This document shows, in pieces, positions 5,317 to 8,810 of a stretch of DNA of 64,000 nucleotides. Within the stretch, counting starts at the first letter, position 1. Each line of letters starts with the position of its first letter. This DNA comes from Mycobacterium mantenii (GTDB lineage: Bacteria > Actinomycetota > Actinomycetes > Mycobacteriales > Mycobacteriaceae): NCBI RefSeq assembly GCF_010731775.1, contig NZ_AP022590.1:5828001-5892000 (forward strand), given 5' to 3'. Both the position numbers and the translations under genes were made by a program. The notes below the pieces were generated by a model that did no database searches, was not told the origin of the DNA, and worked only from the letters and a program-made list of their open reading frames with translations.

Positions 5317-6408
5317 GTGAGCCTGAGCCTGGGAATAGTGGGTTTGCCCAACGTCGGCAAGTCGACCTTGTTCAACGCGCTGACCCGGAACAACGTGGTG
5401 GCGGCCAATTATCCGTTTGCGACGATCGAGCCCAACGAGGGCGTCGTCCCGCTGCCCGATCCCCGGCTGGACAAGCTGGCCGAGATGTTCGATTCCGAGA
5501 AGATCGTGCCGGCGCCGGTGACGTTCGTCGACATCGCCGGCATCGTCAAGGGCGCCTCCGAGGGCGCCGGGCTGGGCAACAAGTTCCTGGCCAACATCCG
5601 CGAGTGTGACGCGATCTGCCAGGTGGTGCGGGTGTTCGCCGACGACGACGTGGTGCACGTCGACGGCAAGGTCGATCCGGCCTCGGACATCGAGGTGATC
5701 GAGACCGAGCTGATCCTCGCCGACATGCAGACGCTTGAGCGTGCGGTGCCGCGGCTGGAAAAGGAAGCCCGCAACAACAAGGAGCGCAAGCCCGTGCACG
5801 AGGCGGCCGTCGCCGCGCAGGCCGTACTGGACTCGGGCAAGACGCTGTTTTCGGCCGGCGTCGACACGTCACTGCTGCGCGAGCTGAATCTGATGACCAC
5901 GAAGCCGTTTCTGTACGTGTTCAACGCCGACGAGTCCGTGCTGACCGACGATACCCGCAAGGCCGAGCTGAGCGCGATGGTCGCACCTGCCGACGCGGTG
6001 TTCCTCGACGCGAAGATCGAGGCCGAACTCCAAGAGCTGGACGACGAGTCGGCTGCTGAGCTGCTGGAGTCGATCGGGCAAACCGAGCGTGGACTCGATG
6101 CGTTGGCCCGGGCCGGTTTTCACACCCTCAAGCTGCAGACCTACCTGACGGCGGGCCCAAAAGAGGCGCGCGCGTGGGTGATTCACCAGGGCGACACCGC
6201 GCCGAAGGCCGCGGGGGTGATCCACACGGACTTCGAAAAGGGCTTCATCAAAGCCGAAATCGTCTCCTACGAGGACCTGATCGCCGCGGGTTCGATGGCG
6301 GCGGCCAAGGCGGCCGGCAAGGTGCGCATGGAGGGCAAGGATTACGTCATGGCCGACGGCGACGTAGTCGAGTTCCGACACGGGGCAACAACAAAGCCGT
6401 CGAAGTAG
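5317..6408 (+). CDS. ychF: Redox-regulated ATPase/GTPase YchF (OLA1 family), altered C-terminus
   Basis: YchF is an Obg-related P-loop NTPase that associates with ribosomes. G1 is GLPNVGKST (about residues 8-16), Switch II is VDIAGIVKGAS, and a C-terminal TGS domain ends the protein. The family normally ends in a sequence like DVVEFRFNV. Here it reads DVVEFR and then HGATTKPSK, so the last codons have been replaced. Copies of the normal end lie downstream (see repeats). The start is GTG. A possible -10 box TAGACT ends nine bases before it, which would give a leaderless or nearly leaderless transcript. Confidence 0.95.
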   Translation: MSLSLGIVGLPNVGKSTLFNALTRNNVVAANYPFATIEPNEGVVPLPDPRLDKLAEMFDSEKIVPAPVTFVDIAGIVKGASEGAGLGNKFLANIRECDAICQVVRVFADDDVVHVDGKVDPASDIEVIETELILADMQTLERAVPRLEKEARNNKERKPVHEAAVAAQAVLDSGKTLFSAGVDTSLLRELNLMTTKPFLYVFNADESVLTDDTRKAELSAMVAPADAVFLDAKIEAELQELDDESAAELLESIGQTERGLDALARAGFHTLKLQTYLTAGPKEARAWVIHQGDTAPKAAGVIHTDFEKGFIKAEIVSYEDLIAAGSMAAAKAAGKVRMEGKDYVMADGDVVEFRHGATTKPSK

Positions 6409-6426
6409 TCGTCTGATGAGGGGGGC

Positions 6427-6777
6427 ATGATGCATTACCGGCTTTATGAATCTGCAGGCTTCCTGGGCTCGCATCCAGCTTTCGCCGACTCGGACGACTT
6501 TGATGCACTGCGGCTCTGGGCCGTGAAGCACAATGACTGGAAGGGTGTCCGGACCGCCGCAGTGATCGTGTCGGACGCCGGCCGCGTCTGGTACGTGAGT
6601 CGGAGCGGAAAGGCGCGGGAGGCCAGCGATGAGCGGTCGCCCACTGGCGGCGCCTCGCAGGTGTCGAAGCTGATCGCCCGGCTGGAGGACCGTTACACCC
6701 CTGAGAGTGCCATTCAGCTCGGCTACGACGTTCCTGGGCCAGAGAGGTGGACGCACAAGACAATTCCTGTGACGTAG
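6427..6777 (+). CDS. Unknown 116-residue protein in ychF-end cassette 1
   Basis: I do not recognise this protein. It has no membrane segment or signal peptide, and is mixed alpha/beta with many aromatic residues (HYRLYESAGF, WAVKHNDWKGV, VWYVSRSG). A G-rich ribosome site (GAGGGGGG) precedes the ATG at 6427; a second ATG follows directly. It begins 18 bases after the altered ychF stop, and a degraded copy of the ychF end follows it at 6791. It is therefore probably cargo brought in with the insertion. Confidence 0.6.
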   Translation: MMHYRLYESAGFLGSHPAFADSDDFDALRLWAVKHNDWKGVRTAAVIVSDAGRVWYVSRSGKAREASDERSPTGGASQVSKLIARLEDRYTPESAIQLGYDVPGPERWTHKTIPVT

Positions 6778-6790
6778 ACGAGCAGCGCCG

Positions 6791-6823
6791 GCCGACGGGG
6801 ACGTGGTTCGGATCAACGTCTAC
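6791..6823 (+). repeat. Degraded copy 1 of the ychF 3' end
   Basis: GCCGACGGGGACGTGGT matches the codons for ADGDVV at the ychF end, followed after a short deletion by a version of TTCCGGTTCAACGTCTAG. It lies outside any reading frame that continues it, directly after the first cassette gene. Confidence 0.55.
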
Positions 6824-6855
6824 ATCGAAGTCGTGACTGTGGTGAAGGAGGCGAC

Positions 6856-7314
6856 GTGACCGACGAGTCGAGGCCATTTCGGGCTGAGATCGAGGAGATC
6901 CTTGTCAACCGTTCGAGCACGCGCTTCGGCAAGGTCGCTGCGGGTATGAAGCGAGGGCTCAGCGACGCCGAAATGGCGCAGGAGGCCGTCGCGGCCGGTG
7001 AGCCCATCCGCGCGGACAGCGTCGCGGCGGTGCGCAGGATCGTCCGCCTCTCCCTGGATGACGAACTCGTGACCGCGCCTTCCGAGGCCGAGGAGCAGGC
7101 CAACCTCTTCCGCGAGTTGCTGAATCACCACTGTTCGCCCGGATTGCTTCAACACATCACCAGCCGCTTGACCCGACTGCAGGCAGTTGGCCCCAATGTC
7201 AAGTTGACGCCGCTGGGCGCGGGCCACCTCGGCGCGAACGCCGCGTCGCAGCGAGAGAAGCTCCCGCCGCTTTGCCCAGTGTGCAATCAATTCCATAGTG
7301 GCGAGTGTCTGTGA
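6856..7314 (+). CDS. Unknown protein with C-terminal CxxC-H-C knuckle, cassette 2
   Basis: This protein has 152 residues, starting at a GTG with the good ribosome site AAGGAGG seven bases upstream. It is predicted mostly helical and soluble. It ends in LCPVCNQFHSGECL, a CxxC...H...C pattern like a small zinc knuckle. The body (MAQEAVAAGEPIRADSVAAVRRIVRL) resembles a helix-turn-helix region, but I cannot assign a family. It lies between two copies of the ychF 3' end and has no equivalent that I recall in the M. tuberculosis region. Confidence 0.6.
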   Translation: MTDESRPFRAEIEEILVNRSSTRFGKVAAGMKRGLSDAEMAQEAVAAGEPIRADSVAAVRRIVRLSLDDELVTAPSEAEEQANLFRELLNHHCSPGLLQHITSRLTRLQAVGPNVKLTPLGAGHLGANAASQREKLPPLCPVCNQFHSGECL

Positions 7315-7337
7315 CGCGGCCCGCCAGAGCGGTCGGG

Positions 7338-7376
7338 GCCGACGACGACGTGGTGGAGTTCCGGTTCAACGTGTAG
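7338..7376 (+). repeat. Intact copy 2 of the ychF 3' end
   Basis: These 39 bases read ADDDVVEFRFNV then TAG, the usual C-terminus of YchF, although no ychF gene precedes them. Similarity to ychF begins at the GCC GAC codons and does not extend further upstream. Confidence 0.8.
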
Positions 7377-7405
7377 TCGAGTTCCAGTTCAACGTGAGCA
7401 AGTAG
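7376..7405 (+). repeat. Short copy 3 of the ychF 3' end
   Basis: TCGAGTTCCAGTTCAACGTG directly follows copy 2 and would read VEFQFNVSK and a stop. It is a second, tandem, slightly diverged ychF terminus. Confidence 0.6.
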
Positions 7406-7455
7406 GCATCGCGCGGAATCGAGATTCGGCGACACGGGTTTCGGCAGCTGGTCTA

Positions 7456-8100
7456 ATGATCGCCATGCCGCTTGTTGAACGTGCGCTTACCGCTCTGGCT
7501 CGCCAGCTCGGTGAACCAACTGGGTTCGCAGGCCGGGTGGTCGGACGGCTGCTCAACCGTGGCAATCGGTCAATTGTCGTCGCTGCGGTCGCCGCCACGG
7601 GTTGCGGACCAGCGGCCGAAGTCGCCGACATCGGATTTGGCGGAGGCGTCGGACTCGACATCTTGCTCGATCGCAACGGCACGGTTGTTCACGGCGTCGA
7701 GATGTCGGAGACGATGCTCACAGAAGCAAAGCGCAGGTTCTCTGACGACATTGCTCGCGGGCGGTTACGTCTGTATTCCGGTCGGATGGAGAGCCTGCCT
7801 CTCGAAGATTCCGCACTAGACGCGATCATCTCGACGAACACGATCTATTTCGTACCGGACCTCGCCGCAGCTCTGAGTGAGCTGGTTAGAGTGCTGCGGC
7901 CGGGCGGGCGACTGGTACTCGGGGTTGGTGATCCGGATCAGATGTCCAAAATGCCCTTCACCCGCCATGGATTCCGGTTGCGCCCCATCGACGAACTTGT
8001 GCCGACTATCCGCGAGGCGGGTTTTGGTCAGATTGAGGACAGGCGCGTCGGTGATGGCCAAGGCGCCTTCCATCTTTTGGTGTGCGACTTGCCGGGCTGA
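7456..8100 (+). CDS. Class I SAM-dependent methyltransferase, cassette 3
   Basis: A 214-residue methyltransferase of the type-11 group. The SAM-binding motif I is EVADIGFGGGVGLDIL (about residues 55-70). The acidic motif II is HGVEMSETML, followed by the post-I region SNTIYFVPDLAAALSELVRV and LRPGGRLVLGV. The N-terminus (LARQLGEPTGFAGRVVGRLLN) resembles the lid of small-molecule methyltransferases. The substrate is unknown. The ATG at 7456 has a weak ribosome site; ATG 7465 is an alternative. It lies between ychF-end copies 3 and 4. Confidence 0.85.
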   Translation: MIAMPLVERALTALARQLGEPTGFAGRVVGRLLNRGNRSIVVAAVAATGCGPAAEVADIGFGGGVGLDILLDRNGTVVHGVEMSETMLTEAKRRFSDDIARGRLRLYSGRMESLPLEDSALDAIISTNTIYFVPDLAAALSELVRVLRPGGRLVLGVGDPDQMSKMPFTRHGFRLRPIDELVPTIREAGFGQIEDRRVGDGQGAFHLLVCDLPG

Positions 8101-8149
8101 CGTGGCGACTCCCTTGTGCACCACTTACAAAGCGGCGAGATGTTTATCG

Positions 8150-8186
8150 GTGACGGAACTCGGTCGCGTTCCGGTTCAACGTCTAG
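8150..8186 (+). repeat. Copy 4 of the ychF 3' end
   Basis: GTCGCGTTCCGGTTCAACGTCTAG is a near-perfect ychF terminus and is preceded by a partly matching GTGACGGAACTCG. As the distal copy, it may be the remains of the original ychF end before the insertions. Confidence 0.7.
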
Positions 8187-8219: not shown

Positions 8220-8810
8220 GTGAGTGACACGTGCGAGCAGGGTTGTGACTGCTGCAGCACCGTCGATGTGGCGCCCATTCGAGACGGCGAGCGCGACGCC
8301 GAATGGGCGCGCGCCGCCAGCTGGGCCCGCTGGCTCGCCTGGGCGAGCCTGCTGTGGATGTGCGCCGAGGGCGCACTCGGCCTCTGGCAGGGATTCGCAA
8401 CGGGTTCAATCTCTTTGACCGGCTGGGCGCTCGGCAGCGCGGTCGAAGGACTGGCGAGTTTAATCGTCGTCTGGCGGTTCACCGGGTCGCGCACCCTGTC
8501 GGCGACGGCCGAGCGGCAAGCGCAACGCGGTATCGCGGTTTCGTTCTGGCTCATCGCTCCGTACATCGCCGCGGAATCGGTGCACAACCTGCTCACACAT
8601 GCGCGTCCGGAGAGCACGGTCATCGGCATCGTCCTAACCGCTCTGGCATTGGTGCTCATGCCGGGTTTGGGTTGGGCCAAGCGGAGACTGGGCCGAAGGC
8701 TGGAATCACAGGCAACCGCCGGAGAAGGTACACAAAACTACCTGTGCGCAGCCCAGGCCGCCGCAGTGCTGGCCACCCTGGCCGTCCTCGCCGTCTGGCC
8801 TGGCGGCTGA
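8220..8810 (+). CDS. Cation-transporter-like membrane protein, cut short by an in-frame TGA
   Basis: This 196-residue membrane protein resembles CDF-type cation transporters. It has a cysteine cluster at the N-terminus (CEQGCDCC) and four to five membrane segments (for example WLAWASLLWMCAEGALGLW and VIGIVLTALALVLMPGLGWA). The GTG at 8220 is the start. The TGA at 8808-8810 is followed in the same frame by 28 codons encoding WLDAAAGLVIAGLAVSEGIE and ending in DCC. That tail looks like the true final membrane helix and metal-binding end. A TGG-to-TGA change would explain this, so the gene may be a recent pseudogene or be read through. Confidence 0.7.
   Translation: MSDTCEQGCDCCSTVDVAPIRDGERDAEWARAASWARWLAWASLLWMCAEGALGLWQGFATGSISLTGWALGSAVEGLASLIVVWRFTGSRTLSATAERQAQRGIAVSFWLIAPYIAAESVHNLLTHARPESTVIGIVLTALALVLMPGLGWAKRRLGRRLESQATAGEGTQNYLCAAQAAAVLATLAVLAVWPGG

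Follow-up and report, generated by a model that had tools for sequence, protein, structure and literature searches.

Why does the 3' end of ychF, the gene of a conserved GTPase, recur several times behind the gene itself in Mycobacterium mantenii? We addressed this question in a window of 64,000 nucleotides (contig NZ_AP022590.1 of assembly GCF_010731775.1, positions 5,828,001 to 5,892,000 of the forward strand), taken from a 6.19 Mb genome that forms a single contig; positions given without a locus name are those of the window, and G and L numbers designate genomes and loci. A preliminary description of this DNA had proposed a site-specific event acting repeatedly at a gene end, by a mechanism that may work in trans or have been lost. 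The proposal is supported, since cargo varies at the site, older downstream DNA is found at offset 0 behind ychF elsewhere, and large serine integrase (LSR) elements occupy the same ychF end with the same C-terminal tails. Recurrent insertion at the ychF end, the use of this end by serine integrases and serial insertion driven by LSRs all have good support.

The ychF gene (5317..6408, + strand; Pfam YchF-GTPase_C) encodes a protein nearest (96-97%) to those of Mycobacterium colombiense and other Mycobacterium records. Its native part, up to VVEFR, stops at 6378, and the remaining codons (6379..6408) read HGATTKPSK and a stop in place of FNV, a replacement that was already described correctly. 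The likely crossover dinucleotide, GT, lies at 6367..6368. Behind the gene, cassette 1 (6409..6790) contains a 116-aa open reading frame (ORF, 6427-6777) with no Pfam match, relatives of which were found in 6 of 325 other genomes of the genus (E 1e-10). Junction 1 (6791..6836) follows; here the ychF arm is copied at 6791-6806 and joined to a displaced replaced tail, FGSTSTSKS and a stop (6807-6836), with roughly 10 nt of the core absent. Cassette 2 (6837..7337) carries a 152-aa ORF (6856-7314), also with no Pfam match; 104 proteins, itself included, are among the matches listed, and one of them is annotated on a Mycobacterium plasmid. Junction 2 (7338..7376) is a complete older ychF end, ADDDVVEFRFNV, with its stop kept (profile score 44.0). 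Abutting this stop is a second half-site, VEFQFNVSK and a stop (7376..7405, score 21.6), which starts 23 nt after the first and is retained in G048, G276 and G007 and decayed in G046. Cassette 3 (7406..8132) encodes a methyltransferase (7456-8100, Pfam Methyltransf_11), and the array closes with an LSR-type P arm (8133..8162; score 18.6, the 99.9th background percentile being 3.42) joined to the oldest remaining ychF end (junction 3, 8163..8186, GTCGCGTTCCGGTTCAACGTCTAG, score 35.6). The ORFs of the three cassettes, ychF and the next gene, at 8220, are all on the + strand; neither a tRNA nor an Rfam match at E 1 was found in the window. Because the displaced tail FGSTSTSKS differs from the present HGATTKPSK, at least two events must have occurred, and the two tails suggest that cassette 2 entered before the event of cassette 1.

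The repeated ends are therefore real, as their profile scores and the empty controls below indicate, with some changes to their first description as four copies of the normal end at various stages of decay. Those at 7338-7376 and 7376-7405 stand. What was taken at 6791 for a decayed FRFNV end is the composite junction 1, while only 8163-8186 of the last copy is ychF-like, 8133-8162 being an arm common to LSR elements elsewhere and not decayed ychF. One copy had been called exact with its stop codon: the stop is there, and "exact" is loose, 7338 reading ADDD where native ends read ADGD. Similarity does begin at the codons for A-D in two of the four copies (6791 and 7338) and does end at the stop codon in two (7338 and 8163), not in all.

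Extra ends were scored with a 24-nt profile derived from native FRFNV ychF ends (53 in an earlier version, 61 later) at a threshold of 13, the best background score with the earlier version being 9.4. In 80 loci of relatives, chosen as best ychF matches and not for end copies, the scan downstream of ychF recovered 48 extra copies; the same scan gave no match in 719 kb of reverse strand and none in 677 kb of upstream sequence. An extra ychF end downstream or a replaced tail was present at 38 of the 80 loci (extra copies in 33, a replaced tail in 17). A pattern search of 396 genomes of the genus located the ychF end in 349 and at least two ends in about 81, and about 21 of 186 genomes of other genera in the family also had at least two; these multiple ends were counted by eye and are not every one confirmed to be at ychF. 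Loci without a ychF end were left out of the counts, 12 near-duplicate loci were excluded from the cargo, displaced-tail and first-junction counts, and LSR-linked loci from the junction counts. The motif is short and the sequence GC-rich, which might favour a chance origin or a low-complexity motif common to gene ends; such an origin is ruled out by the reverse-strand, upstream and reversed-pattern controls, the last yielding nothing in all 396 genomes, and we assign it a negligible probability. Short ychF-end queries against phages and plasmids returned mostly chance-level matches, besides ychF-like records.

Strains lacking the cassettes had been expected to show one clean ychF end directly before the gene at 8220. 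This gene (8220..8810, +), cation-efflux-like and just under the Pfam cut-off, is also present in L003 and L004, where a decayed ychF end precedes it, and a clean ychF in that position was not found. In genomes without a given insert, old downstream DNA does stand directly behind ychF: the 400 nt behind a distal copy occur directly behind a real ychF end elsewhere, with an offset of 0, in L019 and L027 compared with L022, in L054 compared with L041 and L084, and in L052 compared with L041. For the window itself, the ychF end of G048 (YchF 97.2% and methyltransferase 98.6% identical) leads straight into the methyltransferase unit that constitutes cassette 3. Junction 2 (7338-7376) equals the ychF end of G048, in context, and the two genomes match nearly base for base from 7338 as far as aligned; the window therefore corresponds to the G048 arrangement plus 986 bp, namely cassettes 1 and 2.

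The methyltransferase unit is also found directly behind ychF in G276 and G007. Core to core, it is 90.5% (832 of 846 nt covered) and 87.8% (845 of 846) identical to that of the window, values above those of the ychF DNA (84.4% and 82.5%, respectively), such pairs being listed only where cassette similarity was at least that of ychF minus 1%. A related methyltransferase was detected in 51 of 297 genomes searched. In the 12 with at least about 82% identity, window included, a ychF end stands before it on the same strand; ychF itself lies within the fetched stretch in 11, and G093 was assigned by an end copy 630 nt before the methyltransferase gene. Eighteen further loci, at 50-56% identity, had ychF or an end copy nearby in five cases, on the opposite strand, and none in 13. 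Phages gave no match to the unit, and plasmid records no more than a 56-nt end piece in one Nocardia. Relatives of about 50% identity are present in ychF arrays in the opposite orientation (G035:C19:85662-86276; L034, L045, L129), suggesting separate captures. Taken together, these comparisons show units inserted precisely at this point, old ends displaced behind them, and sharing of units across species.

A candidate agent came from the scan of viral contigs for the ychF end, which recovered ten. Four of them, L145, L147, L149 and L151, encode a protein with Resolvase and Recombinase domains (449-470 aa) whose start lies near the copy of the end. The LSR of G035 has the same two domains, and the remaining members of its group were assigned by similarity only. 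It has a match at E 1e-40 in 106 of the 396 genus genomes, 17 of these at 51% or more. The fetched stretch included ychF for 14 of the 17, and all of these had ychF, a replaced tail, 7.4-16.9 kb of DNA and then the LSR pointing back to ychF; 13 of the 14 show a core no more than about 65 nt beyond the LSR match, G353 in decayed form. The exception, G045, has a broken LSR and a core further away; in G393 and G347 the core is present with ychF outside the stretch, and in the G288 stretch the core was not seen; it was also not seen in 7 of 13 next-best LSR loci inspected by eye. The G035 element, the sole one scanned for it, combines the LSR with a major head protein in about 10 kb, and the G035 genome carries a cassette in addition to this element.

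The tails beside these elements are HGATTKPSK-like (G123, G195, G039, G045), FGSTSTSKG (G035, G353, G315, G307), HGQPSK (G085, G204), FQTTSGGKAAAK (G084), HG followed by a stop (G213, G206) and FGTTSTSKG (G069). The same kinds terminate YchF in integrase-less arrays, those of the window, L061, L070, L003, L045 and L042. Tails equal or close to 6379-6408 sit beside LSR elements, exactly HGATTKPSK in G123, and the window tail reads as an LSR P' arm of the G123, G195, G039 and G045 type. The displaced tail at 6807-6836 resembles FGSMSTSKS in L056 and the FGSTSTSKG found beside LSR elements. Between 13 LSRs, identity in the DNA-binding parts is 53-89%, and the catalytic parts are mosaic (G123, G195, G307 and others), as if catalytic domains had been swapped with targeting to ychF unchanged. 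In the G035 element, the gene nearest ychF (L160:10579-11436) encodes the abortive-infection protein Abi_alpha and the first cassette of L054 encodes AbiTii, both possible defence cargo.

The architecture of the site resembles that of a serine integrase target. The crossover was assigned to GT because identity between the ychF end and the LSR junction stops there in G035. Native ends have an AACGTCT-like motif 3 nt after VVEFR, a position fixed by definition, since they are FNV ends. In 28 of 34 replaced tails (14 of the 34 from LSR elements) the best match to it lies at 8 nt, 5 bp further out, 25 of the 28 matching at least 5 of 7 letters; the control gave 316 of 29,400 random windows. Zinc-ribbon motifs are described, in PMC3783163, as sitting 5 bp nearer the centre in attB than in attP. 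In 12 LSR elements, the left arm and the reverse-complemented right arm agree at 11-16 of 30 positions, and the arms vary jointly: both carry TTGTTGC in three HGATTK elements, and both a ACGTTGAT-like sequence in FGSTST elements, G315 and G307 among them. Scored with a profile made from 15 LSR-linked left arms, 32 of 109 cassette junctions (28 of the 99 distinct junctions), the last junction of the window included, surpass the 99.9th percentile of 7958 background windows; all 13 LSR arms tested by leave-one-out passed the same cut-off, two of them barely. TATCGG, present at several junctions, was read by eye as a remnant of a RelE toxin gene (L052); this was rejected because its spacing is fixed and it is common to LSR elements, which makes it part of the P arm.

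The segments between ends numbered 87 at 57 loci, with lengths of 200-2600 bp and a median of 731 bp. A main ORF, chosen mechanically, was present in 86 of them, and these ORFs form 58 families; some of them may be spurious, chiefly those on the other strand. Different cargos thus occupy the same site, and the ends do not recur with unvarying contents. The ychF strand carries 60 of the 86 main ORFs (p = 0.0003, a value made too strong by partial homology between ORFs), and they stop at a median of 37 nt before the crossover. Thirty cassette proteins were compared with Pfam and 26 matched, among them F420H2 quinone reductase, Phd antitoxin, glyoxalases, DUF1801, aquaporin, AbiTii, CPCC, SDR, SnoaL/LEH, polyketide cyclase, AAA/CPT, RibD_C, GGACT, trypsin-like, PIN, PEMT, YjdM, CMD, AadA_C, MerR and hydrolase proteins; no recombinase was recognised among the 30. 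In Nocardia farcinica, a ychF-array segment (L112:14221-15039) encodes an AadA_C nucleotidyltransferase-like protein.

We favour, with moderate confidence, an explanation in which the ychF 3' end is the attachment site of phage-like LSR elements of 7-17 kb and also collects integrase-less cassettes, the LSR acting in trans. Insertion would cross over at GT in the codons for VVEF, the incoming arm becoming the new YchF C-terminus and the old ychF end being displaced behind the cargo. Small cassettes without integrase, usually with one accessory gene, would gather at the same end, and with repeated insertion the units would line up in an array, the latest of them adjacent to ychF. We infer excision and insertion of the cassettes in trans by a phage-borne LSR, as well as their passage to new hosts. 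Their role as passengers of this kind, suggested by the sequences compared, is unproven.

Several observations weigh against the explanation or fall outside it, beginning with the window. Its genome has no LSR of this group, its tail agrees with the shifted motif in no more than 4 of 7 letters and equally well at another position, and the junctions at 6791 and 7338 are ychF-arm copies with no LSR arm. These two are therefore not simple attP x attB products, which points to an event that was site-specific in place, perhaps by more than one mechanism. Among the 99 distinct junctions, sorted by our own thresholds, 28 are LSR arms, 29 are ychF-arm copies (22 long and 7 short) and 42 fit neither class; 21 of 3223 GTSGA windows, true junctions included, reach the arm-copy threshold. 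Arm copies in place of LSR arms are not covered by the proposed explanation, and neither are the half-site at 7376-7405 and the fact that first cassettes never show both LSR halves. In 60 arrays with no recognised LSR element, the first end is native in 45 and a replaced tail in 15. The first cassette of native-end arrays ends in an LSR arm in 19 cases, an arm copy in 8 and neither in 18; that of replaced-tail arrays ends in an arm copy in 6 and neither in 9, an LSR arm being found in none of the 15. Hence no cassette was seen to have a complete attP, unlike LSR elements, which carry both halves, and this lowers the odds of mobilisation in trans. In addition, attL is not efficiently recombined without a directionality factor, according to PMC3783163.

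Replaced tails may revert to FNV, or may travel by import of ychF; L015, L019 and L079 have native-looking ends with leftovers of a tail behind the stop. By import, a foreign ychF with its tail and cassette would recombine in the body of the gene and join near the resident end at its other side, displacing that end, the tails having been made once by LSRs elsewhere and then spread by homologous recombination. This would cover the pairing of replaced tails with ychF-arm copies (6 of 15), the varied starts of the copies, long or short and one of more than 45 nt (L054), and the two younger junctions of the window, which are of this kind. It would not produce the LSR arms at native-end arrays (19 of 45), and several arm copies begin, by eye, at the same GCCGAC, unlike random joining. 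As the general cause we find import improbable. Displaced replaced tails also lie inside the arrays of L039, L061, L078 and L208, with none on the reverse strand. That of L208 (G085) is directly behind an LSR arm, so that an LSR element did enter an occupied site. At L039, 679-1132 behind ychF, a cassette ORF crosses a junction and has the ending VEFRFQATSGQQKK; insertion can add arm-encoded residues to a cassette protein. This ending had suggested a second target gene, which was rejected, the ORF being a cassette ORF that runs into a displaced tail.

The arm-copy junctions could also be the work of tyrosine integrases that act at this gene end with a longer shared core. Small tyrosine-type integrases do occur at the ychF end of the viral contigs L144 and L153 (supported by Pfam only in L144), and L151:1386-2549 encodes a tyrosine integrase (PF00589) behind a ychF end copy, so that the same end is apparently used by an integrase of another, unrelated kind as well. 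A motif scan of 114 loci gave no convincing match, two being judged spurious, and no array was found with arms matching the L144 element; we consider this origin of the arm copies very doubtful. A tyrosine recombinase as sole cause was rejected, there being no convincing motif match and the arms fitting LSR sites. The flank of L151 is resembled in L048, L044, L101 and L106 and, by eye, in G355 and G039.

The segments might instead be scars, LSR elements at ychF that lost their integrase and phage genes by deletion and persist as remnants like cis-mobilizable elements (CIMEs), which PMC7563491 defines as decayed elements retaining att sites. A tblastn search with five integrases found fragments only in L116, L048 and L114, besides the L132 LSR element and four named phage records, and LSR fragments in these arrays are what scars would leave. 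Moreover, L048 and L054 have genes in common with LSR elements, and 4 of 108 array ORFs match the 14 LSR elements compared. The other 104 have no match in them, although there may be other parent elements outside this sample, and several species have the methyltransferase unit with both of its ends flush. Since main genes on the ychF strand stop at a median of 37 nt before the crossover and the LSR match starts within about 65 nt, scars would need many independent deletions ending in that gap. A general origin as scars is unlikely in our estimation. Both scars and ychF import nevertheless have to be taken seriously, and some of the arrays may be due to them.

The ychF end gives the search for accessory genes a definite location, provides a serine integrase family with natural targets and partners, and offers a testable case of small genes spreading without their own recombinase. 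YchF, for its part, withstands having its last residues replaced more than once. Single genes are classically collected by integrons, of which we know no counterpart in mycobacteria. Like integron gene cassettes, the ychF units are single genes, mostly in one orientation, with the newest nearest the platform; they differ in that the 114 loci showed no integron integrase in the motif scan, and in that the arms fit serine integrase sites. It is conceivable, and we advance it only tentatively, that Mycobacteriales have a second natural gene-cassette system, integron-like and run by phage-borne LSRs in trans, with the ychF 3' end as platform, single genes with integrase half-sites as cassettes, and the successive YchF C-termini of the array as a record of the sequence in which different integrases were active.

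In the open-access papers searched, no cassette system at ychF was found described. A Streptococcus pneumoniae prophage between dnaN and ychF (PMC6375853) also lies beside ychF, on its upstream or promoter side, with another integrase and site. The mycobacterial phage-inducible chromosomal islands (PICIs) and phiRv1-like elements with serine integrases described in PMC10654092, a paper that does not mention ychF in its main text, resemble the G035 element in its LSR, capsid gene and size of about 10 kb; the integrase-less ychF cassettes, in contrast, are not satellites. CIMEs in accretion arrays (PMC7563491) likewise have att sites without recombination genes, in tandem at a gene 3' end. Their parents are conjugative or mobilisable elements, and those with cargo are 1.2-13 kb long, whereas the ychF segments have a median of 0.73 kb and their candidate parents, by putative descent, are phage-like LSR elements. 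In the SCC and ECC cassette chromosomes (CcrAB large serine recombinases, rlmH 3' region; PMC6222049), as at ychF, LSR insertion takes place at the 3' end of a conserved gene, with variable cargo and displaced att remnants; the site here is ychF, not rlmH, and most units consist of one gene without a recombinase.

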